Source of the DNA: an uncultured Methanobrevibacter sp.
GTDB lineage: Archaea > Methanobacteriota > Methanobacteria > Methanobacteriales > Methanobacteriaceae
Length of the DNA: 64,000 bases
Reading direction: 5' to 3'
NCBI GenBank assembly: GCA_946541845.1
Contig: CAMNJW010000002.1
Location: forward strand, 1-64,000
Under the pieces are notes generated by a model. That model saw only the letters and a program-made list of their open reading frames with translations, searched no databases and had not been told where the DNA came from. The stretch's first letter is position 1. The number at the start of each line of letters is the position of its first letter. Of this stretch, positions 8,094 through 51,105 are shown one piece after another. The position numbers and the translations under genes were made by a program.

Positions 8094-8555
8094 TTATTTG
8101 ATGTTCTTAATAAAAGTATTTATTTTTTCGGTGGGGTTTTTAACATCTTTTGCATTCAAAAACATTGTTGAAACTTGTGTTTTTCCACTTACTTCAGCTA
8201 TTTTTTCCAATGCTTTTTCATATCCTCCACTGATACATGTACAAAAGGAAGCCATCTTTTTAATTTGGTCGTTATATTTGATTAGATAAGTGTAAACGGG
8301 TGTTGCCATGTTTGATGCCCAAACTGGAGTTCCAATAATTACCAAATCATAATCTGATGGATTTTTGGAAATTGGGTCAATATCGCTGGTTCTTCCCATT
8401 GAGGCATTCATTCCGCCTTTCATGTATCCGAGTCTTCCGTCATATTTTCCGCCGTCTGTTATTTCTTCAATGTCGCAGTCAAGCTCTTTTTGAAGCCTAT
8501 TTGCAATGTCTTTTGTAACATTGGTTCTTGAGTAGTATACGATTAAAGTTTTCAT
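8094..8555 (-). CDS. Flavodoxin
   Basis: 153-residue single-domain flavodoxin, an FMN-binding one-electron carrier. The N-terminal phosphate-binding loop (YYSRTNVTKDIA) follows the first beta strand at residues 4-8. A GTPVWASNM stretch matches the second FMN loop, and a CTCISGGYEKA stretch sits at the third. Length is normal for the short-chain type. Redox partners cannot be told from context: upstream is the Lhr helicase, ending 8 bases before this start, and downstream are two small membrane proteins. Confidence 0.88.
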   Translation of the reverse strand: MKTLIVYYSRTNVTKDIANRLQKELDCDIEEITDGGKYDGRLGYMKGGMNASMGRTSDIDPISKNPSDYDLVIIGTPVWASNMATPVYTYLIKYNDQIKKMASFCTCISGGYEKALEKIAEVSGKTQVSTMFLNAKDVKNPTEKINTFIKNIK

Positions 8556-8563
8556 CCTAACAC

Positions 8564-32699: not shown

Positions 32700-33365
32700 T
32701 TAAAAAGAGTCTTTTTTAACATAATTTTTAATGCATTCGAGCAATTCTACTGCATCTTCCCTTTTGATGTCTTTGGATGTGCGGATGAAATCAATTAATT
32801 TTCCTTTCTTTTCATCATCTAAACTGGATTTGCTTAAAGTTTGTGCATAATTTCTTTTTGGATAAAAAGTAGATTTTGCAATTGAATACAGTTCCTCTTT
32901 TTCACTTTCGGTTATGATATTTTCATCAACTGCATTTTCAAAAACATAATTCATGCTTATCAGTGGGGTGGACAGTGCCTCTAAAGTTTCTGAATCAAGC
33001 ATTACCGCAACATCATCGTCTGAAGTAACTTTGCCTGATGCATATTGTTCGTAACAGTATCCTATTCCAATCATTCCTAGACTGTCAAGTTCTGAAGCTC
33101 TTAAAGCTCCCATGCTTGATGCTCCAAAGACTTTCACTCCTTTTTTCATAACATTAAGTATTTCTCTATGTCCAACTGCGGAGTTTTGGTGAAATACTCC
33201 GTCGATTATCCCGATAATGTCAGGATTTTCCTTGATGTCGTGAACTAAATCGCCTCTTTTGATGGGCCTTTTGTAAATTACTTCAATGTTTTCGGTTGTG
33301 TCTAAAATTTCTTTTGCTTCTTCGAAAGGCAGTGACAATCCAGTATAAATTATGATTTTATTCAT
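32700..33365 (-). CDS. tfuA: TfuA-like protein of McrA-glycine thioamidation
   Basis: 221-residue TfuA-domain protein. With YcaO it converts a glycine of the methyl-coenzyme M reductase alpha subunit to thioglycine; TfuA is thought to deliver or activate the sulfur source. The typical GASSMGALRASEL stretch is at about 75-90 and a helical C-terminus follows. GTGATT precedes the ATG, and it begins 4 bases after the ycaO stop. The methanogenesis target (mcr) is not in this window. Confidence 0.92.
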   Translation of the reverse strand: MNKIIIYTGLSLPFEEAKEILDTTENIEVIYKRPIKRGDLVHDIKENPDIIGIIDGVFHQNSAVGHREILNVMKKGVKVFGASSMGALRASELDSLGMIGIGYCYEQYASGKVTSDDDVAVMLDSETLEALSTPLISMNYVFENAVDENIITESEKEELYSIAKSTFYPKRNYAQTLSKSSLDDEKKGKLIDFIRTSKDIKREDAVELLECIKNYVKKDSF

Positions 33366-33369
33366 TTAA

Positions 33370-34569
33370 TCACACTTTTAGGAATCTGTATCCCGCACGG
33401 CTTTGGTCTATTGCATAAATTTCCATTTCAGGAATTATTACGCGAACGACACTAACATCAAGTTCCGGTCTTGTTAAATCGGTGTACAATATTTTTTTGA
33501 TGTCGTTTGCCATTAGCTCTTCTTTAACAATCTCAATATCTTTGGTTATTGAAGTTGTGGATTTATTTTCAATATCTGAAAGATCAATTTGGTCATCTTC
33601 CTGTCTGAAGTAAAACTTATTGATTCTTTTCATCCTTTCATAACCTGCTTCACGGGCAAAATCTGCCCTTACGGTATCTTCACGGGCTCCATTGATTTGT
33701 GTCGCTCTGCTTTGAGCCACTTCTGTCAATGCTCTTAGAATTGCAACTTCGGGGTCAAGATGGGTTCCCATTCCTAATGTTAAAAGGCCAGCATCTTTTG
33801 TAACGGTATCATCTGCTGAAGCGGCTATGGTTGGAATCTTGATATCCGCAGTAAAGTCCATTAGTTTAATTTTAATGCCCTCAGATTCAAATTTATCGAT
33901 GGTCTCGTTAATCAATTCACTTTCAATGCTGTCCAGATTGATTTGCGCATAATTTTTATGGGTTAGTTCAAAGATGCTCCATGCATCTCTTTCAATAACT
34001 TCAAACATCCCATGTAATATTGCTTCTTCCAAAACGTTTCCGGAAGCAAGCCCATTGGTATTGGACTTGAATAAGCTTTCGGCATTATCTTGAATGTATG
34101 GGTGGAAAACTGCATTTGAAGGAACGTAAAATTCATTGCCTGAAATTAAATCATGTGATAAACTCCATTCTAGTTTCATATCGCTTAAATCTTCTTTTTC
34201 AAATTTTTGGTTTAGATTTAATGATTTTGGGTCAATATAGTCTCCCGTATCAGCAATTTCATTAACTGTAGCTATTAATGTTTCATCGATTTCCTGCTTT
34301 TCAGCGGAATATCTTTCAAAGCCTTCCATCATGGCAGATGCCTTTGCATGGTCTTTGCTTATTCCCTTTCCACCGTAAATGCTGATAGCTCCATCTTCTG
34401 CAGTTGGTCTGATTGCTGTAAAAACAGGTATTCCTATGCGATCTAAATCGGTAATGTCTGCAATACGAGTAATTCCTGCGGTCTTCAGTTTATCCTCATT
34501 AATTTCTATTGTTCTTTTAGGAGCAATAATCCTATGTGTCCCTTTAAAGTATGTAAGCTCTTCACTCAT
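33370..34569 (-). CDS. ycaO: YcaO-type McrA-glycine thioamidation protein
   Basis: 399-residue YcaO-fold enzyme that uses ATP to activate the peptide backbone for thioamidation of the conserved glycine in McrA. The ATP- and Mg-binding Glu/Arg-rich features are visible in MMEGFERYSAEK (about residue 80) and GMFEVIERDAW (about 185), followed by LTEVAQSRATQINGARED. The order M50 protease, ycaO, tfuA with gaps of 2 and 4 bases indicates one transcript. Confidence 0.93.
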   Translation of the reverse strand: MSEELTYFKGTHRIIAPKRTIEINEDKLKTAGITRIADITDLDRIGIPVFTAIRPTAEDGAISIYGGKGISKDHAKASAMMEGFERYSAEKQEIDETLIATVNEIADTGDYIDPKSLNLNQKFEKEDLSDMKLEWSLSHDLISGNEFYVPSNAVFHPYIQDNAESLFKSNTNGLASGNVLEEAILHGMFEVIERDAWSIFELTHKNYAQINLDSIESELINETIDKFESEGIKIKLMDFTADIKIPTIAASADDTVTKDAGLLTLGMGTHLDPEVAILRALTEVAQSRATQINGAREDTVRADFAREAGYERMKRINKFYFRQEDDQIDLSDIENKSTTSITKDIEIVKEELMANDIKKILYTDLTRPELDVSVVRVIIPEMEIYAIDQSRAGYRFLKV

Positions 34570-36337: not shown

Positions 36338-36371
36338 ATTTAGGAAAATAGTTGTTATTTGAGAGTTGATC

Positions 36372-37151
36372 ATGCCACATATAATTTTAAAAAGAGTATG
36401 GGATTATTGCAGTTATAGCAAAAAGTATCTTGTATTTATTATGGTGCTGTTGTTTATTTCATCTCTGATTCAAAATTATGTTATTATCCATGGGGATTCG
36501 AATGAAATAAATATTCTTCATCTTTTGGTTCTCATTGTTGTATCGGGTTATGGGATGGTAATCACCAAAGATAGGATAAATCATGGCAACAGATTGCCTA
36601 AGATTGTTGTTAAGGATATTCTTTTATTCGGTATTAAATCAGCAGTTGTCATATCAGTTTATGTTTTTGTTCAGGGAAAGATATTGGATTATATTTGTTC
36701 TCCATTGAATTTTCCAAGGTTTGATTTGGAAGAAATGCTATTGAATTGGTCGGAGACTATTCACATGCTGTACAGTCACAATCCGGTTAATACAGTAATT
36801 TTTCTTGTTGTAGGTGCTATTTTATTTTATGTATGTTCATTTTTCATGGAAATTGCATTGGCTAGATTGGCAGATACTGGAAGTCTCGTGTCCTCATTTA
36901 ATTTCATAGCAATCAAAAGGAGTATTGATGTTGTAGGGTGGAGAAATTATGCTAAAGATTACACATTGATTGTATTTGCCATAGTCTTTTTGTCATATTT
37001 GATGTCTTATGAATTGGTATTTTCATTTTTAGATTCAATAGTCGACATGTTTTTAGCATTTTTAATCTTTGCAACTCAATATTTGGGTATTGGGGCAGCT
37101 TATTGTGAAATTAAGGATTTAGAAACTAAAGTTCGCATACCTGTGGAGTAG
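36372..37151 (+). CDS. DUF4013 integral membrane protein
   Basis: 259 residues with about six transmembrane helices. The GYGMVITKDRINHGNRLPKI block is characteristic of DUF4013, a methanogen-rich family of unknown function. The start at ATG 36372 matches the start of the paralogue downstream: both begin with MPH, then ILKRVWDYC. The earlier in-frame TTG at 36366 is not needed. Confidence 0.82.
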   Translation: MPHIILKRVWDYCSYSKKYLVFIMVLLFISSLIQNYVIIHGDSNEINILHLLVLIVVSGYGMVITKDRINHGNRLPKIVVKDILLFGIKSAVVISVYVFVQGKILDYICSPLNFPRFDLEEMLLNWSETIHMLYSHNPVNTVIFLVVGAILFYVCSFFMEIALARLADTGSLVSSFNFIAIKRSIDVVGWRNYAKDYTLIVFAIVFLSYLMSYELVFSFLDSIVDMFLAFLIFATQYLGIGAAYCEIKDLETKVRIPVE

Positions 37152-37367
37152 CTTTTTTTTGATGGTATTTAAAAATAAAATAAGAAGTACCTTATGAATA
37201 TCTTTTTAAAAAAGTTATGAAAATACAGTATAATTAAATATATTTGTGCATTTTCATTATTCATGTTTATTCAAAATTTGTTGTAATGTGAATGACATAT
37301 ATTTTTTATAATAGTTAATTTTATTTATTTTCATTTTTAAAGTATTGTATAGATTTGAGGAGTAGTT

Positions 37368-38126
37368 ATGCCACATGTTATTTTAAAAAGAGTATGGGAT
37401 TATTGTACATATAACAAGCCATTTTTTTTACTTGTTTTGCTATTGTTCGGTGTATTGGATTACTTGCAGGATTCTTTTGCTGATTCATCTTCTATTATGA
37501 TGTGGATGCTATATTTTATTGTTACTGTACCTATTCTTGGTTATGGGATGACTATTACCCGGGATAGGATAAATAAGGGTGTTAGGCTGCCGAAAATAAT
37601 TACTGGCGATGTCATTGTTTTAGGAATTAAATCATTCATTGTTTTTTCAGCATATTTATATGTTCAAGGTTTTATTTTGGATTTGGTGTGCTCTCCATTG
37701 GATTTTCCTCACTTTGATTTGGAAGAAATGTTATTTGATTTTTCAAATACATTGAACTTATTATTTTCACATAATCCTATTGATGCATTAGTTTTTGTTG
37801 TTTTAGGGGCTGTTTTATTTTACATTACTATGTTTTTCACGGAAATTGCAATTGCAATGCTCGCTGATACTAATTCTTTCTGGAATTCTTTTAATCTACT
37901 TGAAATTAAAAAAAACATTGATTTGGTCGGATGGAAGCATTATACAAAAGATTATACGATGATTGTTTTGGCAATTGTTATTTTCGGATTTTTTTCATAT
38001 ATTACTATCCCAATTCCTATTTTGGAATATATTTGGGTTACTTTAATATATTTGCTCATGTTTGTAACTCAATTTATGGGAATAGGGAGAATATATTCTG
38101 AAATAAAAGAAAAAAAGTCAGATTAA
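37368..38126 (+). CDS. DUF4013 integral membrane protein (tandem paralogue)
   Basis: 252 residues, six predicted transmembrane helices, similar to the preceding gene along its whole length: the same N-terminus, the same GYGMTITRDRIN block and the same SHNP segment. GAGGAG sits before the ATG. The 216-base gap between the two copies is AT-rich and probably holds a separate promoter. Its 3' end overlaps the convergent phosphopantetheinyl transferase gene by 9 bases. Function unknown. Confidence 0.82.
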   Translation: MPHVILKRVWDYCTYNKPFFLLVLLLFGVLDYLQDSFADSSSIMMWMLYFIVTVPILGYGMTITRDRINKGVRLPKIITGDVIVLGIKSFIVFSAYLYVQGFILDLVCSPLDFPHFDLEEMLFDFSNTLNLLFSHNPIDALVFVVLGAVLFYITMFFTEIAIAMLADTNSFWNSFNLLEIKKNIDLVGWKHYTKDYTMIVLAIVIFGFFSYITIPIPILEYIWVTLIYLLMFVTQFMGIGRIYSEIKEKKSD

Positions 38127-38750
38127 TTCACTTGAAGTGATTTTGAGATATTTGTCCACTTCATATTTTGAGCAAGTGGCTAATTTATATTCTTCAACAT
38201 CAAATAGACTGAATTTAAGATTATTTTTGTCATTTTTAAGTTTAATTTCTTCGTCAATAACTATTTCAAAGCTATCTAGGTCTAAGCGAAATCCCAATCC
38301 TGTGTATTTCATGTAGCTTTCTTTCAAAACCCAGTATTTAAAGAATTCATTAGATGGCTTTTGTGCCTTAAGGATATTTCTGTATTCGCTGTTGTAGAAA
38401 TAATGTTTGGCAATGTTTAAATCAATTTCGGGGTCGTTATATTCAATGTCAACTCCAATTTCCATGTCAGATATTGCACATGCGACCAATTTCCCTGAGT
38501 GGCTTAGATTGAAATAAATGTTTTCATAGTTGGATATGTATGCCTTGCCGTATTCGTCAATTTTGAAAAGGGGATTTGTTATTTTTTCTTCATTTAATAA
38601 CTTGACTAAAAGCAGATACGCTCCAGCACTGAGCTTTTTATCCTTGTCAAATCTAAACTTGTCAAATTTTTCCTTTCTATTTTCGGGCAGCAATTCATAT
38701 GCCTTAATCATATCTAAATTGCTGACATCACAATAAGCTACTTTAATCAT
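38118..38750 (-). CDS. 4'-phosphopantetheinyl transferase (Sfp type)
   Basis: 210-residue Sfp-type transferase. It moves the phosphopantetheine arm of CoA onto the serine of carrier domains, here most likely the two carrier domains of the NRPS at 41565-49370. The Mg-binding GVDIEY motif is near residue 98, and WVLKESYMKYTGLG, with the WxxKE(S/A) signature, is near 140. Archaea have no fatty acid synthase ACP that normally needs it. Its ATG overlaps the end of the phosphatase gene by 8 bases, tying it to the regulatory operon. Confidence 0.93.
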   Translation of the reverse strand: MIKVAYCDVSNLDMIKAYELLPENRKEKFDKFRFDKDKKLSAGAYLLLVKLLNEEKITNPLFKIDEYGKAYISNYENIYFNLSHSGKLVACAISDMEIGVDIEYNDPEIDLNIAKHYFYNSEYRNILKAQKPSNEFFKYWVLKESYMKYTGLGFRLDLDSFEIVIDEEIKLKNDKNNLKFSLFDVEEYKLATCSKYEVDKYLKITSSELI

Positions 38751-40644
38751 TTTTGATCTTCAAATATAATAATGTCATGTCATCAAATTGCTCAGCATCT
38801 TTGGTAAAGTCATGAATATTGTCTAATAACGGTCTGATTGGGTCATTTTCACTTTTGAATTCATTGAAGAAGTTTAACAGTTTGTCTTCACCATACATTT
38901 CATTTTTATCATTGTTTGCATCAGTGATTCCATCAGTAAATAAGACTATTTCATCAGATAGTATAATCTCTTCTGTAACGTAGTCAAAGTCCTCCATAAT
39001 GCCTATTACGAGTCCAGTATCAATATCTAAATACTTGAATTTATCATTTTCCATGATCAATGGAGGGTTGTGACCAGCATTTGAAAATACTAATTCTTTT
39101 GTTGTTCTGTTATATATTCCGAGCCATAATGTGATGAACATTGATTCGGGGTTATTTTCACTTAATTGGTTATTCAATAAGTATAAAACTCTTGAAGGGT
39201 CTTGGTTGTGCTTTAAAAGTTGCTTAATCATCACTTGACTAATCATTGCAAGGATTGCTGCTGGGACACCTTTTCCTGATGCGTCACCTATTACAATAGC
39301 CAAATGCTCTTCGTCCAACTCATAATAATCAAAAAAGTCTCCTCCGACTTCTTTTGCAGGTTTTGAATAGCCGTTGACAGTGTAATTTTCATTTTTAATG
39401 CCCTTTGTTGGGAGGTTCGCTGCCTGAATCTTGGTTGCAATGTCAAGTTCAGCTTTAATACGCTCTTTTTCCCCTTCAATTTCATTAATATTTTCAATAT
39501 AGTTGTTATTGAACGTAATTAATTCTGTGTAAGAACGGGCCAATGTTCCAATTTCAGTTTTTTCGTTTATATAATTTGAATAAAGGTCAACCAGTCCTTC
39601 AGATTCTATCTTTTCATTTTCATGAATGAATTCTTCAATTTTGGCAAATGACAGAATAGGTTCAATCACTTTTCTTTCGATGTATTTTAAAACAGATATT
39701 GATGGAAGCAGGAAAATTAGTAATATAACATCAATAAATGCCATCATTGAAATGATTATTTCAGTCTTGTCTAATGGAAGCAACTTGTCAATTGCGGTAA
39801 TTAGTATGTGGTCTCCTGATATTGAGATTCCAAAGATGATTATCGCCAGTGTTGCCAAAAGGAATATGTTCATTATTTCTTCTGGAATTGATTTATGGTT
39901 TATTGTAATGATTTTGGAAGAAATAGGCTTTGTCAAATAGATGAACAATATTAAACAGATTGCGATCAACTCAGTTATGATGATGTATGAATTCAAATTG
40001 ACATTGCAATCAATCATCAAAGTGACTATCAATGATAAAATCAACAAAATTCCCATTATTCTGTATAATTTCTTGTTATATTCTTTTTTGGATGTTTTTG
40101 GTATGTGGACAAAATCAAATCTATTGGAAATCCAGACTCCAATTATTCCGAAGATAAATGATGAATTGATAAAGTTTAAGAAGTATCTGATTTCAATAAG
40201 TGTGTTGATTCGTATGGTTTCAGGATACAATAAATAAAATAATTTTCCATGTGTTAATGAGTATAAAACGCCACACACGATTATTATTCCAAAAAATAAA
40301 ATCACATTTGAAGTATTGTTCAGTTTTGGTCTTGAAACTTCAGGTCTGCCATTATAATTTTCATACCATAACATATATGCCAGATAAGACACACCGAAAC
40401 TGACGACTGCTGAAGCTATTGCAAGTATCGGATTATATCCTCTTATCAAATCACATAAGAAATTTGCAACCACTGACCCTATTGCCCCATATGGTCCAAA
40501 TATCAGTCCTGAAACTAACAGTATTCCCACATGAGGACTCAATCCTGCGCCGAAGTTATGTCCATAGGTTAAATAATATGTTCCTAAGTTAAAAATCAGC
40601 ATTAAAACAAAAGGAATCAGTGCCTTTTTAAATTTATCATTCAT
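38743..40644 (-). CDS. Membrane-bound SpoIIE/RsbU-type serine phosphatase
   Basis: 633 residues. The N-terminal about 330 residues contain eight to ten transmembrane helices, the first four resembling a small-molecule-binding membrane sensor with a GAGLSPHVGILLV block. A charged linker with predicted coiled coil follows (about 340-420), then a PPM phosphatase domain (about 425-633) with metal-binding Asp residues in VGGDFFDYY, IGDASGKG, LFTDGITD and DDMTLLY. Predicted to dephosphorylate the STAS protein encoded two genes upstream, as RsbU/SpoIIE do. Its start overlaps the HATPase stop by one base. Confidence 0.92.
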   Translation of the reverse strand: MNDKFKKALIPFVLMLIFNLGTYYLTYGHNFGAGLSPHVGILLVSGLIFGPYGAIGSVVANFLCDLIRGYNPILAIASAVVSFGVSYLAYMLWYENYNGRPEVSRPKLNNTSNVILFFGIIIVCGVLYSLTHGKLFYLLYPETIRINTLIEIRYFLNFINSSFIFGIIGVWISNRFDFVHIPKTSKKEYNKKLYRIMGILLILSLIVTLMIDCNVNLNSYIIITELIAICLILFIYLTKPISSKIITINHKSIPEEIMNIFLLATLAIIIFGISISGDHILITAIDKLLPLDKTEIIISMMAFIDVILLIFLLPSISVLKYIERKVIEPILSFAKIEEFIHENEKIESEGLVDLYSNYINEKTEIGTLARSYTELITFNNNYIENINEIEGEKERIKAELDIATKIQAANLPTKGIKNENYTVNGYSKPAKEVGGDFFDYYELDEEHLAIVIGDASGKGVPAAILAMISQVMIKQLLKHNQDPSRVLYLLNNQLSENNPESMFITLWLGIYNRTTKELVFSNAGHNPPLIMENDKFKYLDIDTGLVIGIMEDFDYVTEEIILSDEIVLFTDGITDANNDKNEMYGEDKLLNFFNEFKSENDPIRPLLDNIHDFTKDAEQFDDMTLLYLKIKND

Positions 40645-41021
40645 TATTCCACTTTTTTAATTATCTTTAAGTGATTTTCACCGTTTATATGTTGGTAATA
40701 TATTTCATCTGCCATTTCTTTAGCTAAAAAAATTCCCCATCCTCCAATTTGAGCTTCTTCAATTGTTTCAGGAGCTTTTGGATCTTCTTTAAGGAGGGGA
40801 TTAAATTCAATTCCATTGTCAATAAATTCCATGGTTAATGTTGGGGTTTCAAATTCAACATTAACTTTAATAAAATCAGCATTAGAATAATTAACGATAT
40901 TGACGAAAACCTCTTCGGCTATCAAATTCACTTGGAGGTTTTCTTCTTTAAGATTATCAATGATAAAATCATTTAATCGATACAATTCGTTTAATTCAGG
41001 TTGTAATGAAATTGTCTTCAT
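40644..41021 (-). CDS. RsbW-like anti-sigma-type serine kinase (HATPase)
   Basis: 125-residue GHKL ATPase of the RsbW/SpoIIAB type. The N box is IAEEVFVNIVNY (Glu37, Asn41), G1 is FIDNGIEFNP (Asp68), and G2 is GGWGIFLAKEM (93-96). In bacteria such kinases phosphorylate a STAS antagonist and bind a sigma factor. Archaea have no sigma factors, so its output target must be something else. Its start overlaps the STAS gene by 4 bases (ATGA). Confidence 0.92.
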   Translation of the reverse strand: MKTISLQPELNELYRLNDFIIDNLKEENLQVNLIAEEVFVNIVNYSNADFIKVNVEFETPTLTMEFIDNGIEFNPLLKEDPKAPETIEEAQIGGWGIFLAKEMADEIYYQHINGENHLKIIKKVE

Positions 41022-41317
41022 TCTATCTTTAATATCTTATCAAAACCTGACATTCTGAATATTTCGTTGATGGTATCATTAACGTTTTTGATTGTCATTG
41101 GAATGTTTTCAGGTTTCAATTTCTTTTGAGTGGCGATTAAGACACGTAACCCTGCACTGGAGATGTATTCCAAATTGGAAAAGTCAATAATCAATGAATC
41201 AAACTTGCCCATTTCATCGTTAATCTCATTTTCAAAATCCGGCGCAGTAACGGTATCGATGCGGTCTCCGACTTCAATTGTTAATTTCTTTTCGTTATAA
41301 GTTTTTGTGATATTCAT
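41018..41317 (-). CDS. STAS-domain antagonist (RsbV/SpoIIAA-like)
   Basis: 99-residue single STAS domain. The phosphorylation site is present as YISSAGLRVL, with Ser53/Ser54 at the position used in SpoIIAA and RsbV. Predicted to be phosphorylated by the HATPase kinase and dephosphorylated by the SpoIIE-type phosphatase from the same operon. It is the first gene of the operon STAS, HATPase, phosphatase, phosphopantetheinyl transferase; the 247-base divergent region to the NRPS gene contains both promoters. No clear Shine-Dalgarno site. Confidence 0.9.
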   Translation of the reverse strand: MNITKTYNEKKLTIEVGDRIDTVTAPDFENEINDEMGKFDSLIIDFSNLEYISSAGLRVLIATQKKLKPENIPMTIKNVNDTINEIFRMSGFDKILKIE

Positions 41318-41510
41318 AATAATTAATTTCGTATTAATTAATTTTAAATATTTTGTTAAAGGTTTCTTTTATCAATCTTTGGAATTAATCCTAATTTTAT
41401 TTATTTAAGGCATTATTTATTTATTGTTTTTAATAATTCATTCAATTAACTCTTTATTTGTTATTTTATGGTGTAAGTGTGTGCTTGCATTCGAAAAACT
41501 TTATATGAGT

Positions 41511-41520
41511 TTTTTATATA
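41511..41520 (+). promoter_or_regulatory. TATA box of the NRPS operon
   Basis: TTTTTATATA about 50 bases before the NRPS start at 41565. It predicts a leader of about 25 bases ending in GGTGA, four bases before the ATG. Confidence 0.45.
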
Positions 41521-41564
41521 GTAGTAGAAGTAATATATTAATAAGTATTGAATTTGGTGAAATT

Positions 41565-44500
41565 ATGAGCTATTTTAATTTATCTTCATCTCAGAAGATG
41601 CTGTTGTTTTCAGAGATAAACAATCCGAAAAATGATTCGTTTTATCTTAAATTCCGAAAGGATTATGATTTGAAAGATTTTGAAGATGTAAAAAGGTCTA
41701 TTGAAACTATTTCCAGAACTCATTTAAACTTGAAAATTAAATATGATGAAAATGGTGATTTCAAGCAGTATTATGATGATTTTGATGTAAATGTCGAATC
41801 ATTTGAAGTTGCTGATGAAAGTCTTGATGGGTTCATTGTTGATTATCTGGATGATCCTTTTGATGATGTTTTTGATTCTCCATTGTATAAATGGGCAGTA
41901 TTGAAAACAGATTCATCAACAGTGCTCATCGGTGTTGTGCAACATATTTTATTGGACGGAACTTCCTTGTTTTCATTAATACCTCAGGAAATAGAAAAAT
42001 ATCTTAATGATGATGAATATGCTTCGGAGGACTATTCTTATGAAACATATGTCAATGATGAGCTGGATTATTTGGCATCATCCGAAGCTAATGACGATAA
42101 GGAATATTGGTTAAATGCCTTAAAAGAGTATTCTCAAGATTGGTATTCATTTGACAAGTCAGAACTTGGTTATTACGAATTGCTTTTGGACCAAATCCCA
42201 AAATTTGATTATTCTCCATTCGTTACAGCACTTGCTCTTGAGTTCTTGTACTTTGCAAAATCCAAAAAGGACAACAAAATATTTAAGGACATAGTGATGA
42301 ACACTTCAGTCCATGGGAGATATTTTGGACAGGGCGATGCCCTTGGAATGTTCGTAAACACAATTCCTCTAAGATTGACCTATGATGAGGATTTGACTTT
42401 CGATGAGCTGTTGGCATATTCCAAATCAGTCCTAAAAGAGGGATTAGCCCATGCTAAATTGCAGTTCAGTGAATACACAACTGATTTGAGGAACGAGAAC
42501 ATTGACCCTGATTGTATCTCAATGATTTCAATCGTTTCAAATTCATCAGATTACGATTCAAAATTCCTTACACTTCAAAAAGACATTAAATTTCCATTGC
42601 ATTTCAGAATAAATAAAAATTACTCCGATAAAAATGGTTTACAATCAATATTCATTGAATATGACAAGTCCTGTTTCAGTTATAATGAAATAGAATCAAT
42701 TGCCAATGGTTTAAAAGATTTGGTAAAACAGGTCATGGAACATTCATCTAAAAAATGCAAAGATTATGATGTTGATGTTGTTGACTTCTTCAATGCTGAA
42801 AATTACTACAATAATTTGATAAATTCATTTGAAAATCCAACAGCTATTTCTCCGGATGTCAATGGTGACAAAATTAAGTTTATAAAAATTTCAAAGCCGA
42901 TCGATGAAGACAAATTAAAAAATTTATCTAGACAATATAACATGTCAAAGGAAAGAATGTTATTGTCAGTATTCTTGTTTAACTTAACAAAATTCTCATT
43001 TTCAAAAGATATTCTAATCGCTTATAATAAACAAGTTTGTGGTTATCATTTTGACACAAATTTATCCGTTATTGATTATTTAAATGATTTTAAAAACTCT
43101 TTCAAGCATTACTCTAATTATCCTTTATTGAATAATGAGAAATTAAACTTCGAAAGTGAAATACTGTTTTTCACTGATGAATTCGATATCAAAGATTACA
43201 AGTTCGTGTTTAATTATGAAAGCGGAAACATAAATCTAAGCTATGATGAATCATTCTACTCACAGGAATTAATGGAAGCTTTTCTTGATTCAATGGAAGT
43301 TCTATTGGATAGATTTGAATCACAGGAAGTGTTACTCAAAAATATTTCAATCAGAGGGGAGCTTGAACATGACGAGGACTTCAAGATTGAACTTGCTAAT
43401 GAAGGAGTAATAAGCAAGATATTTGAAAACATTGCATCTGAAAACCCTCATAAAACAATACTCATTGCTGAAGATGGTGAGCTCACATATGATGAACTAA
43501 ACAAAAAAGCAAATAGAATAGCCAATTCATTGATTAAAAGAGGAGTGGACATTGAAGATAGGGTCATGTTCATGATGAGAAGAAACAGTGATTTGATAGC
43601 TGCAGTATTGGGTATTGTTAAGGCAGGAGCCGCATTCATTCCAATCGATCCTAAATATCCTGCAAATAGAATCAATCAAATTCTGGAGGATAGTGATTCC
43701 AAATTCGTAATAACAAGTTCTGAAATTGATTATGATGGTGAAAACAGAATTGATGTTGACGAATTGCTAAAAGAGGAGGATGATTCAAATCCTAAAATTG
43801 AGTTGACACCGGATAATCTGTGTTTCCTGATTTACACTTCAGGGTCAACTGGAAAACCGAAGGGAGTGATGATAACTCATAGGGGAATTTCAAACTATAT
43901 AGCTAATGTTGAGGATAATGTTCCGATTTATGAGTTAAATCATAAGTGTAACAAGTTCATTTCAATTTCCACAGTATCCTTTATCGTATTTTTAAGGGAA
44001 ATATTTGGTACAATACTTAATGGTCTTCCGGTTATATTTGCTAATGATGAACAATCAATTGACCCATTGGAATTGGTTGATTTATTCAAAAAGACAGATG
44101 CCGAAGGTTTTGGTTCAACACCAACAAGACTTCTTGAATACTTGCAGCTTGAGGAAATCCAGGAAGTTGTTGGTAAATGTAATGTAATAATTGTTGGGGG
44201 AGAAGGATTCCCTCCAGTATTATATGACAGATTGTCAAAATACACTGATGCCGATATCTATAACTCATATGGCCCAACAGAAGTAACAATTGCATCACAT
44301 TACAAGTTAATCGATTCACCTGAAGTCACTGCAGGTTGGAAAATGCTTAACGTTGTTGACAAGATTATGGACATTGACGGAAATCAGCTACCTCCTTATG
44401 TGCCTGGTGAAATCTATGTCGGAGGAGCAGGAATTGCAAGAGGTTATCTAAATAATGATGAACAAACCGAAAAGGTCTTTTTAACATTAAATGGCATTCC

Positions 44501-47500
44501 ATATTATAATACTGGGGATTTGGGTAAAAAAGATGCGAACGGCGAGTTATACGTTCATGGAAGAAACGATACTCAAATTAAACTTAGAGGTTTAAGAATT
44601 GAATTGTCTGAAATTGAAGGGGCAATCTCTAATTATGAAAACATATCTCTTTCAAAGGTTGTTGTTAAAAATATCAACTCAATTGAACACCTGTGCGCTT
44701 ATTTCACCGCTACAACTGATATTGACATGGATGATTTAAAGCAACACTTAATCGATTCAATTCCGGAATATATGGTGCCGTCATATTTCACTCAATTGGA
44801 GGAATTCCCAAAAACACCAAATGGAAAAACAGACTTTAAGAACTTGCCTGACCCTGAAATTGATGTTGATGAGTTTATTGAACCACGGACTGAAATCGAG
44901 CGTGAATTATTTGATATAGTTTCTGAAATTTTAAGTATCGATGAATTCGGTGTAAACACAGATTTATTCAGCATTGGATTGACATCTTTGTCAGTTATTA
45001 AATTCACTTCTGCAATTTACAATAAGCTGAATGCCCAGTTAAATGTTACTGAGGTATTAAATTATAAAACAATTGAAAGAATTGCTTCTGAAATTAAGAT
45101 TGTGGATGATGAATCTGTGGATGTGCAGGAATTATATCCATTGACTTCAAATCAGCTTGGAGTTTACTTTGACTGCATTAAAGATCCTGAAAATACTGCA
45201 TACAACCTTCCAAAGAAAATGGAATTTAGTGAGGGTATTGATGTTGATAAACTAAAATCATCAATCATTAAGGCTATTAACAATCATTCATACTTAAAAA
45301 CAAGAATAATCATGGAAAATGGAGAGGTTTACCAGCAAAGGAGAGATGATCTTAATGTTGATGAATTGATTGAAATAGTAGATGAAGCTAAAGTAGATGA
45401 ATTTGTAAAACCATTCAAACTTGATGAGGGACCATTATTCAGATTCAAAATAGTTGGAAATTCAATGCTTCTTGCTGATTTCCATCATATCATTGTTGAT
45501 GGAACTTCTCTTAACATTTTATTTGATGAAATTGCAAAAATCTATGATGGAAAGGATTATGAACTTGAAGAGCTTGACGGTTTTGAATACTCATTGAATG
45601 AAAAGAAAACAGAGCAATCCAGTTTATACGAAGAAGCAAAACTGTTCTTTGCCAATAAAATTAAAGAATTTGATGAAGCAACATTAATCGCACAGGATAT
45701 CAATGGTGATGAATCAGAGGGCAATGCCGCAACTGAAGATGTTTTCTTAGAAAAAGAAGCCATTGATGATTTCTGCTCACAGGCAGGAATTTCTCAGAAT
45801 AACTTGTTCCTTGCTGCAACTTCATTCGTATTGAATAAGTTTGTTTATAATCGCAATATATTGATTGCAACAATCACAAATGGCAGGTTCAATCCAAATC
45901 AACAGAAAACATTGGCAATGATGGTAAAAACATTACCATTAGCATTAAAACTGAATTCCGATTCAAGTCTTAAAGATTACCTTGATTATGTTAATGGCGA
46001 ATGGTTAAACGTGCTTTCATATTCCTCCTATCCTTTAACTGAGATTTCAAATGAATATGGCATAACTCCTGAAATATTATATGCATATCATGGAAAAATC
46101 ATAGAAGACATTGAAATCGGAGGAATGCATGTTGAAAGGCAATCAATTGACTATGAAGGATTGAAATTCAAAATAAACATTAATGTAGTTGAAGTTGATG
46201 GACAATACAGAATCTTCTGTGATTACAATGATCAATTGTATTCTAAGACATTAATCGATACTTTCCTTGATTCAATTAGGATTGTTTTAGAAAAATTCCA
46301 AACATTTGATGGCAATACATTGATGAAAAACATTTCAATCATTGAAAATGATGATTGGGGCATTGATGATTTGGAATTTGATGAAATCCCTGAAGACAGA
46401 TTAAATAAGATATTTGAAAATCAGGTTGAATTACATCCTGACAGAATCGTTTTATATGCAACTGACGGTAAATTCACTTACTCTCAATTGAATGAGAAAG
46501 CAAACAGGATTGCACATGGCCTCATTAAAAAGGGAGTTGGTCCTGAAGACAGGATAATGTTTATATTGAATAGGGACAGTAACACAATTGCATCAATATT
46601 TGGAATTTTAAAATCTGGTGCGGCATTCATTCCTGTGGATTCAGAATATCCTTCCGAAAGAATTGAGCATGTTCTAACAGACAGTGAATCCAAATTCATC
46701 ATTGTGGATGATGTGGTTGAGAAAAAGGGAATTGACTTATCTCAATATGAGGATAATCTTTTGGATGTTAATGAATTGCTAAAAGAAGAGGATACATCTA
46801 ATCCCGACCCTGATGTGCATGCGAACAATATGGCTTATCTTATTTACACTTCAGGTTCCACAGGACTCCCAAAAGGTGTAATTTTGGAGCATGGCAATAT
46901 TGCAAACTTTGTATATCCTGACCCGAGAAATGTCTGCACTTATGAATTGGTTCACAATCTTGAAAAAGAAGATTATAAGGTATTATCCACCACAACTGTT
47001 GCTTTTGATGTGTTCCAGCAAGAAATAATGGGTTCTCTTTTGAATGGAGTTCCAATGGTATTTGCAAATGATATTGAATACAAGGATCCAATTGAAATGA
47101 TGGATTTGATTCACAGAACTGGTGCTAACGTCTACATTGCAACACCTTCACGTCTGTTACAATATTTGGAAATTGAAGCGATGCAGGAAACCATGTACGG
47201 GTTTAAGGTATATATCCATGCGGGGGAACCATTTTCAGCAAGATTGTATGAATTGCTTTCAGAAAACTCCAATGGAAAATTATTTAATATGTATGGGCCA
47301 ACTGAAACAACTGTTTATTGTAATGGACAATTACTCGAAAGCCCTGACATTCATATTGGAAAAGCATTATTCAACGTTCATGAAATGGTTATGGACTTCG
47401 ATTCCAATCCTCTTCCTCCAAATGTAATTGGGGAACTGTTTATTGGTGGAAAAGGGGTTTCAAGAGAATACTTAAACCGTCCTGAGAAAAATGAGGAAGC

Positions 47501-49370
47501 CTATGAAGTGATTAATGGAATTAGGTTCTATCATTCTGGAGACTTTGTAAAGGTCACGGAGGATGGGGACTATTATGTATTTGGAAGAATGGATAACCAA
47601 ATCAAGCTTAGAGGTTTAAGAATTGAAATCGGGGAAATTGAAGTTGGTCTTTCAAAATTCCCTGGAATCAAGTCCGTAGCTGTTGTTGTTAAAAAGATTA
47701 AAGGCAATGATCATTTATGCGCTTACTTCACCGTTCATGATGAATACAAGGATGAAAACCGTGAAGAAAATGGATATTCGATTGATATTGATGAGTTAAA
47801 GGCATCTCTTGCTGAAAAATTGGTGTATTATATGGTTCCTACAGTTTATATGGAACTTGATGAAATGCCTCAAACAGCCAACGGTAAAACTGACTTGAGA
47901 AACTTGCCTGAACCTGTATTAATCACTGAATATGTCGCTCCTGAAAATGACATAGAAGCGTTCTTTGCAAACTTGTTTGCTGAAATATTAGGGCTTGATA
48001 AAGTCAGTGCCACTGATAATTTCTTTGAAATTGGAGGGACATCACTTCTGGTCACCAAGATTACTATGGAAGCTTTAAACAGGAACTACAATTTAAGCTA
48101 TGGGGATGTTTTCTCAAATCCTACTCCAAGGGCATTGTCTGAATTTATTTTATCAGACAAATCTGTTGAGAAAAAATCGGAATTAACTTATGATTATTCT
48201 GAGATTAATAAATTGCTTTCTAAAAATAATCTCGAATCCTTATTGAATGGTGAAATTCAGGATAGTCTGGGCAATGTATTATTGACTGGAGCAACAGGAT
48301 TTTTAGGAATACACGTATTGAGGGAATTGCTTGAAAATGAAACTGGTGATATTTACTGTTTCATAAGGTCAAATAAAGTTTTAAGCGGTGCTGAAAGATT
48401 GAAATCATTGTTATTCTATTACTTCTCCAATGAATATGAAGATTCATTTGATGAAGGATTGCATGTCATTGAAGGTGACATTACTAACTTTGAGGACTTT
48501 GAGAAACTTATTCCTGAAAAAATAGATACGGTTATCAACTGTGCCGCTAATGTAAAACATTTTTCATCAGGAACTGATATAGAAGACATTAATCTTGGTG
48601 GTGTGGTTAACGGACTTAAGTTTGCAAAATTGAAAAACGCAAAATATGTTCAAGTATCCACATACAGTATTGCCGGTGAAAGTATTGACAATTATCCTCC
48701 TGTTGACGTTAAGTTCACAGAGCGTGATTTGTTCATTGGTCAGGCTGTAAACAATCAATATCTAAGCAGTAAATTCTTAGCGGAACGTGCTGTTTTAGAA
48801 GCTGCCGTCAATGATGATTTGGATGTTAAAATTATGCGTGTAGGTAACTTGATGGCTAGAAGCTCTGACAGTGAATTCCAAATCAACTTCGAATCAAACG
48901 GATTTATTAATCGTTTAAAAGCGTTTGTAACTATTGGACAAATGCCTTATTCAATGATGATGAATAATGTGGAGTTTTCACCGATTGATACAACTGCAAA
49001 AGCAATTGTTGAGTTGTCCAAAACTCCTAAGGCATGCACTGTTTTCCATCCATATGATTATCACAGCATCAGCTTTGGCGATATAATTGACATTATCAAA
49101 CCATTAGGCTTGGAAATTAATCTTGTTGAAGATAAAGATTATGAAAATGCTCTAGATGATGCTCTTGCAGATAAAACAAAACAGGATGGGGTTTCTGGTT
49201 TAATCACATCTATAGGTTCCGGAAAGGTTAAAAAGATTTGGCTTCCAGTGGACAATACATATACAGTCCAGGCCTTATATCGTTTAGGCGTCAAATGGCC
49301 ATTCATCTCAGAAGAGTATGTTTATAATTTCATAAAATTCCTGGATGATTTGGATTTCTTCAGTGTTTAG
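41565..49370 (+). CDS. Dimodular non-ribosomal peptide synthetase with terminal thioester reductase
   Basis: 2601 residues from ATG 41565 (GGTGA upstream; the frame opens earlier without support). Domain order: condensation C1 (1-400, QHILLDG at 126-132), an extra half-C segment (about 430-600, no HHxxxDG), A1 (615-1095; LIYTSGSTGKPKG, SYGPTE), carrier T1 (Ser1141), C2 (1190-1595, HHIIVDG 1307-1313), A2 (1615-2115), T2 (Ser2160), reductase R (2235-2601; GATGFLG 2242-2248, Tyr2399/Lys2403). R domains release the chain as an aldehyde or alcohol. The A1 pocket has Ile807 where Asp binds the amino group; A2 has Asp1815. Cotranscribed with the MATE gene. Confidence 0.95.
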   Translation: MSYFNLSSSQKMLLFSEINNPKNDSFYLKFRKDYDLKDFEDVKRSIETISRTHLNLKIKYDENGDFKQYYDDFDVNVESFEVADESLDGFIVDYLDDPFDDVFDSPLYKWAVLKTDSSTVLIGVVQHILLDGTSLFSLIPQEIEKYLNDDEYASEDYSYETYVNDELDYLASSEANDDKEYWLNALKEYSQDWYSFDKSELGYYELLLDQIPKFDYSPFVTALALEFLYFAKSKKDNKIFKDIVMNTSVHGRYFGQGDALGMFVNTIPLRLTYDEDLTFDELLAYSKSVLKEGLAHAKLQFSEYTTDLRNENIDPDCISMISIVSNSSDYDSKFLTLQKDIKFPLHFRINKNYSDKNGLQSIFIEYDKSCFSYNEIESIANGLKDLVKQVMEHSSKKCKDYDVDVVDFFNAENYYNNLINSFENPTAISPDVNGDKIKFIKISKPIDEDKLKNLSRQYNMSKERMLLSVFLFNLTKFSFSKDILIAYNKQVCGYHFDTNLSVIDYLNDFKNSFKHYSNYPLLNNEKLNFESEILFFTDEFDIKDYKFVFNYESGNINLSYDESFYSQELMEAFLDSMEVLLDRFESQEVLLKNISIRGELEHDEDFKIELANEGVISKIFENIASENPHKTILIAEDGELTYDELNKKANRIANSLIKRGVDIEDRVMFMMRRNSDLIAAVLGIVKAGAAFIPIDPKYPANRINQILEDSDSKFVITSSEIDYDGENRIDVDELLKEEDDSNPKIELTPDNLCFLIYTSGSTGKPKGVMITHRGISNYIANVEDNVPIYELNHKCNKFISISTVSFIVFLREIFGTILNGLPVIFANDEQSIDPLELVDLFKKTDAEGFGSTPTRLLEYLQLEEIQEVVGKCNVIIVGGEGFPPVLYDRLSKYTDADIYNSYGPTEVTIASHYKLIDSPEVTAGWKMLNVVDKIMDIDGNQLPPYVPGEIYVGGAGIARGYLNNDEQTEKVFLTLNGIPYYNTGDLGKKDANGELYVHGRNDTQIKLRGLRIELSEIEGAISNYENISLSKVVVKNINSIEHLCAYFTATTDIDMDDLKQHLIDSIPEYMVPSYFTQLEEFPKTPNGKTDFKNLPDPEIDVDEFIEPRTEIERELFDIVSEILSIDEFGVNTDLFSIGLTSLSVIKFTSAIYNKLNAQLNVTEVLNYKTIERIASEIKIVDDESVDVQELYPLTSNQLGVYFDCIKDPENTAYNLPKKMEFSEGIDVDKLKSSIIKAINNHSYLKTRIIMENGEVYQQRRDDLNVDELIEIVDEAKVDEFVKPFKLDEGPLFRFKIVGNSMLLADFHHIIVDGTSLNILFDEIAKIYDGKDYELEELDGFEYSLNEKKTEQSSLYEEAKLFFANKIKEFDEATLIAQDINGDESEGNAATEDVFLEKEAIDDFCSQAGISQNNLFLAATSFVLNKFVYNRNILIATITNGRFNPNQQKTLAMMVKTLPLALKLNSDSSLKDYLDYVNGEWLNVLSYSSYPLTEISNEYGITPEILYAYHGKIIEDIEIGGMHVERQSIDYEGLKFKININVVEVDGQYRIFCDYNDQLYSKTLIDTFLDSIRIVLEKFQTFDGNTLMKNISIIENDDWGIDDLEFDEIPEDRLNKIFENQVELHPDRIVLYATDGKFTYSQLNEKANRIAHGLIKKGVGPEDRIMFILNRDSNTIASIFGILKSGAAFIPVDSEYPSERIEHVLTDSESKFIIVDDVVEKKGIDLSQYEDNLLDVNELLKEEDTSNPDPDVHANNMAYLIYTSGSTGLPKGVILEHGNIANFVYPDPRNVCTYELVHNLEKEDYKVLSTTTVAFDVFQQEIMGSLLNGVPMVFANDIEYKDPIEMMDLIHRTGANVYIATPSRLLQYLEIEAMQETMYGFKVYIHAGEPFSARLYELLSENSNGKLFNMYGPTETTVYCNGQLLESPDIHIGKALFNVHEMVMDFDSNPLPPNVIGELFIGGKGVSREYLNRPEKNEEAYEVINGIRFYHSGDFVKVTEDGDYYVFGRMDNQIKLRGLRIEIGEIEVGLSKFPGIKSVAVVVKKIKGNDHLCAYFTVHDEYKDENREENGYSIDIDELKASLAEKLVYYMVPTVYMELDEMPQTANGKTDLRNLPEPVLITEYVAPENDIEAFFANLFAEILGLDKVSATDNFFEIGGTSLLVTKITMEALNRNYNLSYGDVFSNPTPRALSEFILSDKSVEKKSELTYDYSEINKLLSKNNLESLLNGEIQDSLGNVLLTGATGFLGIHVLRELLENETGDIYCFIRSNKVLSGAERLKSLLFYYFSNEYEDSFDEGLHVIEGDITNFEDFEKLIPEKIDTVINCAANVKHFSSGTDIEDINLGGVVNGLKFAKLKNAKYVQVSTYSIAGESIDNYPPVDVKFTERDLFIGQAVNNQYLSSKFLAERAVLEAAVNDDLDVKIMRVGNLMARSSDSEFQINFESNGFINRLKAFVTIGQMPYSMMMNNVEFSPIDTTAKAIVELSKTPKACTVFHPYDYHSISFGDIIDIIKPLGLEINLVEDKDYENALDDALADKTKQDGVSGLITSIGSGKVKKIWLPVDNTYTVQALYRLGVKWPFISEEYVYNFIKFLDDLDFFSV

Positions 49371-49380
49371 GGGTAAAATA

Positions 49381-51105
49381 ATGTATGAACGTAATTATGA
49401 GTTATTAAGAAGTAAATTCAGTGAATTTTTCCTGCCTACATTATTCACTTCCATGGCAGGGAACATCTGCCTGTTTGTCGATGGTTTGATTGTAACTTTT
49501 TTACTGGGTGCAGGCAACTTATCTGCAATTCAGATTGTTGCTCCGGTAATCACATTTGTCAACCTCATATATTGGATGATTGGATTGGGAGGAAGTGTAC
49601 TTTGCTCTGTTGCAAAGGCGGAATTTGATGATGAGAGAAGCAACAGCTACTTTTCGGTGGCTATTTTATCTCTTTTAACCATAGGGGTATTGATTGCAAT
49701 TTTTGGTTGGATTTTTTCAGGTTCAATTGCACAGTTTTTATGCGCTTCACAGCCTGAATTGGTTCCGGATGTCACTAACTATTTCAGTGCTCTGATTATT
49801 GGAATGCCATTTTTATGTTATATGATGAGTTTATCTTACTTTATTAGAGCAGATGGAATTCCAACATTGCCGTTTAGGGCTATATTATTGGCAAATATTA
49901 TTAACATCTGTTTTGACTTTGTATATATTCAATTCTTTGGAATGGGTATTGGAGGAGCTGCATTGGCTACTACAACAGGTTACTTGTCAGGTTCAATATT
50001 AATTTCATATTACTTCTTTAAAAAAGAACGTACATTACAATTCATTAAATTAAAAGTTGGTTCAACCTTAAGTTATCTGAAAGAGATTGCAACCTCTGGC
50101 TTTTCCTCTTCTTCAACTCAACTGTATTTAACTTTAAAATTGTTTGTCATAAACTTTTTGCTTGGAATATACATAGGTAAATCAGGGCTTGTTGCATTCG
50201 GTATTTGTTATAACAGTTTATTTATACTTTATATATTCTTAATAGGAACTGCCCAAACAATGTCTCCAATTGTATCTGTTTACTTTAAGGAAGAGGATTT
50301 TTCCGGTGTTAATTATGTAATCAACAGATCTTTGAAAATAGTTTTGGTTGCAAGTTTGGCGCTGTCCGCTTTATTCATAGTTTATCCACAATCCTTGTTG
50401 ATGTTATACAGTGTTAAAAATCCAGCGGATGTTCCTGTAGTTTTAAATGCTTTAAGGATTTTTGCCATTAGCTATGTTGGAACTGCAATTACATTCTTAT
50501 ATACATTCTACTCTCAGGCAATTCAACAAAATTCTCTCTCAACAATAATTTCATTGCTTGAAGGATTTATATTGCCTATTGGATTTGCGATAGCATTGTC
50601 ATTTTTATTTGGCGGAAATGGAATATGGATTTCATTTGCACTGGCTGAACTGTTTACAATAGTATTTATCTTTGCCTATTCAAGGTATATTAATAGAAAA
50701 ACTGATGGGGAATACACAGGATTCTTCATTAACAAGCACAATGATGATACTGTATTTGAACATACCATTCAGGGGGATGTTAATGAAGCGGTAAACTTAT
50801 CCCGTGATGTTCAAACTCACTTGGGTGACAACAAATCTGCAACTATAGTTAGCATGGCTATTGAGGAGATGCTTGTTAATATCATCAACACCAATGATGA
50901 GATTGATGCAATTGATGTGATTGTTAGAAACAATGAGGATGAGATATTGGTTTCCATCAAGGACACTGGTATTGACTTCAATCCAGTAGTTGAAAATGAT
51001 GGCCTTAAATTTGATAACATCAGTGTTTTAAATAAAATTGCGGATAAAATTGAGTATTCCCGCGTATTGGGTTTGAACAGTACTGTAATTACTATTAAAA
51101 ATTAA
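49381..51105 (+). CDS. MATE-family exporter fused to an RsbW-like HATPase domain
   Basis: 574 residues. Residues about 1-445 form a 12-helix MATE transporter, which exports small molecules by cation antiport; the first helices carry FFLPTLFTSMAG. Residues about 460-574 form a HATPase/anti-sigma kinase-like domain: N box AIEEMLVNIIN (Glu495/496, Asn500) and G1 KDTGIDFNP (Asp528), closely resembling the separate kinase at 40644-41021. The glycine-rich G2 loop is degenerate. It starts 10 bases after the NRPS stop with GGGGT upstream, so it is the likely exporter of the NRPS product, possibly gated by the STAS protein. Confidence 0.93.
   Translation: MYERNYELLRSKFSEFFLPTLFTSMAGNICLFVDGLIVTFLLGAGNLSAIQIVAPVITFVNLIYWMIGLGGSVLCSVAKAEFDDERSNSYFSVAILSLLTIGVLIAIFGWIFSGSIAQFLCASQPELVPDVTNYFSALIIGMPFLCYMMSLSYFIRADGIPTLPFRAILLANIINICFDFVYIQFFGMGIGGAALATTTGYLSGSILISYYFFKKERTLQFIKLKVGSTLSYLKEIATSGFSSSSTQLYLTLKLFVINFLLGIYIGKSGLVAFGICYNSLFILYIFLIGTAQTMSPIVSVYFKEEDFSGVNYVINRSLKIVLVASLALSALFIVYPQSLLMLYSVKNPADVPVVLNALRIFAISYVGTAITFLYTFYSQAIQQNSLSTIISLLEGFILPIGFAIALSFLFGGNGIWISFALAELFTIVFIFAYSRYINRKTDGEYTGFFINKHNDDTVFEHTIQGDVNEAVNLSRDVQTHLGDNKSATIVSMAIEEMLVNIINTNDEIDAIDVIVRNNEDEILVSIKDTGIDFNPVVENDGLKFDNISVLNKIADKIEYSRVLGLNSTVITIKN

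Follow-up and report, generated by a model that had tools for sequence, protein, structure and literature searches.

We describe a locus of an uncultured Methanobrevibacter sp. in which a nonribosomal peptide synthetase (NRPS), a MATE exporter and a set of bacterial-type partner-switching genes stand side by side. The locus occupies positions 38118 to 51105 of a 64,000-nucleotide stretch of contig CAMNJW010000002.1 (assembly GCA_946541845.1), which we call the window. In the explanation that we consider the best, and on which our own judgment is evenly balanced, a soluble kinase and a phosphatase set the phosphorylation state of a STAS protein, and the STAS protein gates the exporter through a kinase-like tail. 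The RsbW-like kinase would phosphorylate Ser54 of the STAS protein, and a SpoIIE-type phosphatase would dephosphorylate it when a signal reaches the N-terminal membrane region of the phosphatase. The unphosphorylated STAS protein would then dock on the degenerate RsbW-like tail of the exporter and alter its activity, in the simplest case by licensing export. Exporter gating would take the place of sigma factor release, and a 4'-phosphopantetheinyl transferase (PPTase) encoded in the same operon would couple enzyme activation to the switch. The locus as a whole would make and export a short reduced peptide, with the export, and perhaps also the production, controlled by the partner-switching relay.

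Four genes form the switch operon on the minus strand: a STAS gene of the RsbV/SpoIIAA type (41018..41317; Pfam STAS, 1.3e-15), a soluble HATPase gene for an RsbW/SpoIIAB-type serine kinase (40644..41021; Pfam HATPase_c_2, 1.6e-14), a gene for a membrane-anchored SpoIIE-type PP2C phosphatase (38743..40644; Pfam SpoIIE, 1.5e-45) and, as the last gene, that for the PPTase (38118..38750; Pfam ACPS, 7.2e-15). Divergent from them, on the plus strand, are the genes for the two-module NRPS (41565..49370; 2601 amino acids from the ATG at 41565) and for the MATE exporter with a C-terminal HATPase-like domain (49381..51105, from the ATG at 49381; Pfam MatE, 2.5e-25). An earlier note on this DNA gave overlaps of 4, 1 and 8 bases within the switch operon, which are exact on the open reading frame (ORF) coordinates; the divergent orientation and the 10-base gap between the NRPS and MATE genes were likewise confirmed on ORF and start coordinates. 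This six-gene arrangement with small overlaps is not due to chance, because the cassette recurs with the same small overlaps in many species and because NRPS and SpoIIE genes co-occur.

The four switch genes include a genuine partner-switching set, as the earlier note had it, with the diagnostic residues of STAS, kinase and phosphatase intact. Among 35 STAS sequences, Y51, S53, S54, G56 and L57 are invariant (an SSxGL stretch), and in the match to SpoIIAA in the PDB (4.4e-14) Ser54 is aligned with the phosphorylated serine, which we take to be Ser58 of SpoIIAA. The soluble HATPase has intact N, G1 and G2 (GGxG) boxes, with E37, N41, D68, G70, G93, G94 and G96 invariant in 28 homologs, and its PDB relatives include RsbW (1.8e-6) and SpoIIAB (0.0085). 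In the phosphatase, the PP2C metal residues D436, D454, D571, D621 and D622 are invariant in 35 sequences; the AlphaFold2 model has a predicted local distance difference test (pLDDT) score of 85.8, its Foldseek matches are RssB/SpoIIE phosphatase domains, and the N-terminal multi-helix region (residues 1-340) is the probable sensor. Tandem pairs of SpoIIE phosphatases of the membrane type, with a spacing of about 1.9 kb, were also seen in many Methanobrevibacter genomes (L065, L066, L067, L068, L069 and L101), mostly with no kinase gene adjoining.

The overlapping genes, the phospho-serine of STAS, the intact boxes of the GHKL serine kinase and the PP2C metal residues resemble those of the SpoIIAA/SpoIIAB/SpoIIE and RsbV/RsbW/RsbU modules. 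In contrast to these modules, the window locus has no sigma factor gene and is linked to an NRPS, a PPTase and an exporter with a degenerate kinase-like domain. The annotated ORFs of the locus include no sigma factor gene, no genome-wide search for sigma factors having been made; to our knowledge, bacterial sigma factors are absent from archaea. The cassette thus appears to work like a partner switch but, because no sigma factor gene is present at the locus, we do not class it as a sigma-regulating member. The genome of the window, in an assembly that is 85% complete, contains one STAS match, one SpoIIE match and two HATPase_c_2 matches, the latter being the soluble kinase and the MATE tail. 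Such a small closed network makes the question directly testable.

The earlier note had proposed the HATPase domain of the exporter as the best target of the switch. The MatE domain of the exporter scores above the Pfam cut-off (89.5 vs 24.9 bits) and the HATPase domain below it (17.6 vs 27.4 bits). When the tail (50716..51102, plus strand) was compared with the local soluble kinase by hhalign, the E-value was 2.4e-13, and the gap fell on the ATP lid and the GGLG box. When this domain was searched against the PDB by sequence only, the matches were weak and mostly spurious. The AlphaFold2 model of the tail (pLDDT 84.5) was then compared by Foldseek: the 20 top-ranked PDB matches (E <= 2e-4; TM-scores up to 0.74) were 18 anti-sigma kinases of the SpoIIAB/RsbW/UsfX type and two LvrC structures, and two-component histidine kinases ranked below those 20. 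In an alignment of 28 tails, the archaeal ones lack the ATP lid and the GGxG (G2) box, which are partial in L090 and L094. The N box (Glu/Asn) and the G1 box (Asp-x-Gly) are kept in the window and in most of its class and are lost in other paralog classes. Judged by fold and motifs, the methanogen tail is more likely a docking pseudokinase of the RsbW/SpoIIAB fold, homologous to the soluble kinase; we call it a pseudokinase and not a kinase because the lid and GGxG are missing, a motif loss that would imply loss of ATP binding. The proposal of the note therefore holds in part: the tail is the best candidate client of the switch, in view of its fold and of the loci where STAS stays beside the exporter while kinase and phosphatase are elsewhere, but a second kinase is less likely than a docking site. 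For methanogens, we rejected a second catalytic kinase on the missing lid and GGxG.

The tail might also be a decaying remnant without function, and the genes might travel together in horizontally shared cassettes simply by clustering. We regard this as very improbable. It would fit the progressive degeneration of the tail in several paralog classes and the patchy distribution of NRPS loci among species. The window genome itself has a second MATE-HATPase paralog (L064, contig C32 of G000, 8224-9942), which is 33% identical and has a strongly degenerate tail; no switch or NRPS domains were recognised on this 15.6 kb contig. In G019, which we presume to be M. ruminantium M1 from the matching gene positions, the MATE ORF is disrupted within the tail (L116, 16817-18552), with the remaining domain readable in another frame; this apparent frameshift, a further point for decay, may explain why the HATPase domain went unnoticed in M1. 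What speaks against a mere remnant is that the tail is 75-84% identical to that of the window in close relatives, where conservation extends to the N box, to G1 and to the terminal LGLNSTVITI, and that STAS remains by the exporter where other switch genes have moved.

STAS is the switch gene most closely tied to the exporter. It is local in 23 of the 27 closely related NRPS-MATE-HATPase loci with enough sequence visible (19 by a strict adjacency rule and four in which STAS is no more than 12 kb away). Of 30 archaeal MATE-HATPases that have no NRPS next to them, only 3 have STAS within that distance. A MATE homolog is found no more than 500 bp from 16 STAS genes, where 0.36 would be expected with uniform placement. 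At three places (G039, L136 and L163) STAS adjoins the NRPS-MATE pair without kinase or phosphatase. In the complete genome G039, STAS is beside NRPS-MATE at 851 kb, SpoIIE is at 1.23 Mb (about 0.38 Mb away), and a second STAS accompanies the soluble kinase at 1.61 Mb (about 0.76 Mb away). There is also a second class of long NRPS, in which the MATE tail is barely recognisable and STAS lies a few hundred bases from the exporter. Gating of the exporter would account for STAS tracking the exporter, for a tail in which the fold is preserved but not the lid, and for the loci that have no local kinase.

The loci are not peculiar to the archaeal setting in which the earlier note described them. GTDB genomes were scanned with the full-length MATE protein as the query, the alignment of the C-terminal domain being too variable, and MATE-HATPase/NRPS loci were found in rumen Selenomonadaceae, Synergistaceae and Clostridia, so that an invention specific to an archaeon was rejected. 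In a sample of 151 genomes from the family of L187, 12 had a match. Six bacterial loci (L185, L187, L188, L191, L192 and L263) combine STAS, SpoIIE and MATE-HATPase, and in rumen Selenomonadaceae and Synergistaceae such loci include an NRPS and no soluble kinase gene; none was found in the stretch read at any of the six, and STAS-kinase-phosphatase sets are present elsewhere in the same genomes, where checked. In the tree, which has long branches, bacterial exporters sit at at least two places among archaeal ones; hence, cross-domain transfer probably happened more than once.

Five Selenomonadaceae NRPS-MATE-HATPase loci (L268, L270, L271, L272 and L273) have tails that keep GGIG, GGIN or GGIT. 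Since some Selenomonadaceae homologs still carry GGIG, it is plausible that the methanogen tail degenerated from an originally complete domain. The same tails bear on a reversed flow of information, in which the MATE tail would be a flux sensor that reports transport or product load to STAS and the kinase, and the switch would adjust production. A kinase homolog borne on a transporter could compete with the kinase for STAS, and the bacterial MATE-HATPases with N, G1 and GGIG boxes (L268 and L272) might, from their motifs, be active kinases. In methanogens, the tail has neither lid nor GGxG, which makes active signalling unlikely, and a downstream effector is missing here too; we consider a reversed flow quite improbable.

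Taking methanogens and rumen bacteria together, we propose, with confidence slightly short of balanced, an exporter family with a docking domain that is a pseudokinase derived from an anti-sigma kinase, through which STAS, in its usual role an anti-anti-sigma factor, would gate small-molecule export directly and without a sigma factor. If this is true, it would be a sigma-free output of partner switching that times peptide secretion by gut methanogens, and it would offer a handle on the NRPS products of methane-producing archaea.

The switch genes are tied to NRPS loci throughout the family Methanobacteriaceae, but the coupling is neither obligate nor always local. Gene order was compared among the genomes, and the STAS-HATPase-SpoIIE-PPTase cassette stands beside NRPS-MATE in many species and alone elsewhere in others. 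MATE-HATPase homologs occur in 79 of 139 family genomes. Across the 139 genomes, NRPS and SpoIIE co-occur (both in 73, NRPS only in 6, SpoIIE only in 12, neither in 48), with a Fisher p of 4e-19 that ignores shared ancestry. Within the genus, SpoIIE was present in 47 of 47 genomes with an NRPS and in 5 of 20 without one, shared ancestry being ignored.

Several observations weigh against gating of the exporter. The co-occurrence statistics are uncorrected for phylogeny. G007 and G008 have an NRPS and more degenerate MATE-HATPase paralogs without SpoIIE, and no HATPase_c_2 match was obtained in G007. In G091 (87% complete), an intact cassette stands at the syntenic site, and no NRPS or MATE-HATPase was detected; the chromosomal site of the window, with DUF4013, X-Pro peptidase, M50 and YcaO-like neighbours, there holds the intact switch-PPTase cassette (L086, 10085-13281). 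G061 and G074 have switch genes outside any NRPS context. In G074 (L085, contig C12, 1025-12286), SpoIIE, STAS and HATPase genes are accompanied by two GH3 acyl-adenylate enzymes, a RimK-like ATP-grasp ligase and two ABC exporter genes, and L084 of G061, a genome checked for switch genes only, is similar. Exporter gating leaves unexplained the cassettes without the exporter (G091) and those with GH3, ATP-grasp and ABC genes (G074 and G061), and because of these cassettes the comparison suggests that the cassette can serve other outputs. Finally, no STAS was found nearby in the stretch read at L268 and L270-L273, among which L268 and L272 have an intact GGIG.

The main rival to exporter gating is a transcriptional output, in which the kinase and STAS would sequester or release an archaeal transcription regulator that governs the NRPS, MATE and PPTase genes, the tail being a minor or vestigial partner. 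We consider it unlikely. The persistence of the G091 cassette without an exporter speaks for it. So do reports on M. ruminantium M1. Leahy 2010 (PMC2812497) describes NRPS, MatE, serine phosphatase, anti-sigma and PPTase genes in M1 and proposes regulation of NRPS expression. Under lauric acid, the log2 changes were +1.26 for mru_0514 (PPTase), +1.20 for mru_0069 (MatE), +1.64 for mru_0352 (MatE) and +1.06 for mru_0351 (NRPS) (PMC5816558). The joint rise of these four transcripts, which come from three separate loci, points to transcriptional control as well. Induced genes made up 4 of 12 in the module vs 147 of 2280 (hypergeometric p 0.005), the 12-gene set being taken from Leahy 2010 and defined after the result was seen. 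On the other side, the window cassette has no annotated gene for a DNA-binding regulator, a search for an element common to the promoters of switch, NRPS and MATE genes found none, and transcription control accounts neither for the proximity of STAS to the exporter nor for the RsbW fold of the tail.

As the earlier note stated, a similar neighbourhood is on record for M. ruminantium: the M1 clusters mru0066-0071, mru0351-0352 and mru0512-0516 contain genes of the same kinds (NRPS, MatE, anti-sigma antagonist, serine phosphatase, kinase and PPTase). They differ from the window locus in being split over three loci; moreover, the accessible part of the M1 paper (PMC2812497) does not report the HATPase domain of the MATE protein and proposes regulation of expression, not of an exporter. 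The neighbourhood is thus partly known already (Leahy 2010), and the exporter link is apparently new. No description of a MATE-HATPase coupling was found in the literature searched, with most subscription papers outside its coverage.

Other partner switches have a known output that is not, or is not shown as, a sigma factor, namely BtrU/BtrV/BtrW in Bordetella, which acts on secretion, and SypE/SypA in Vibrio (PMC8256260). Their targets, unlike the exporter proposed here, are a type III secretion system or biofilm formation, and the available text describes no kinase-like domain fused to a transporter. Methanomicrobiales also have anti-sigma-type genes (SpoIIAA, SpoIIAB and SpoIIE types) in archaea without sigma factors; in contrast to the window locus, no link to an NRPS or an exporter is described in the sections seen of that source (PMC2686161).

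The NRPS of the window has the order C-A-T-C-A-T-reductase, with Condensation, AMP-binding and PP-binding domains and a terminal NAD_binding_4 reductase in Pfam; the thioester reductase domain spans 48282..49007 on the plus strand (2.9e-34; residues 2287-2528 of the long ORF). The predicted product is a short reduced peptide, which the terminal reductase probably releases in aldehyde form. The locus resembles AusA/AusB of Staphylococcus aureus (aureusimine NRPS and PPTase) in having a two-module NRPS, a terminal reductase and a dedicated PPTase. The domain order of AusA is A-T-C-A-T-R. AusA is the best NCBIfam match of the window NRPS, but the score of 1077.5 bits is far under the equivalog cut-off of 2500, and with the extra N-terminal condensation domain this ruled out membership; the AusB-like match of the PPTase (3.2e-21) is also far under its cut-off.

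The divergent intergenic region between the STAS and NRPS genes (41318..41564) contains a conserved A/T element, TTTTAAATATTTTGTT (plus-strand reading), at 41342..41363, probably the promoter of the STAS operon on the minus strand. Most close relatives have it, it also precedes the solo cassette of G098, and it scores 23.5 vs a background 99th percentile of 15.7, the window itself being in the training set. As a shared operator of switch, NRPS and MATE genes it was rejected: several cassettes, the solo NRPS of G098 and MATE paralogs lack it upstream, and its features fit a promoter of the STAS operon. Adjoining the cassette at 36366-38126 are tandem genes for two similar membrane proteins, the second of which is DUF4013, and DUF4013-like genes adjoin switch genes also in L085, L086 and L068. 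Outside the locus, at 32700-34569, lie TfuA-like and YcaO-like genes, named by eye, which would correspond to the methanogen thioamidation pair.

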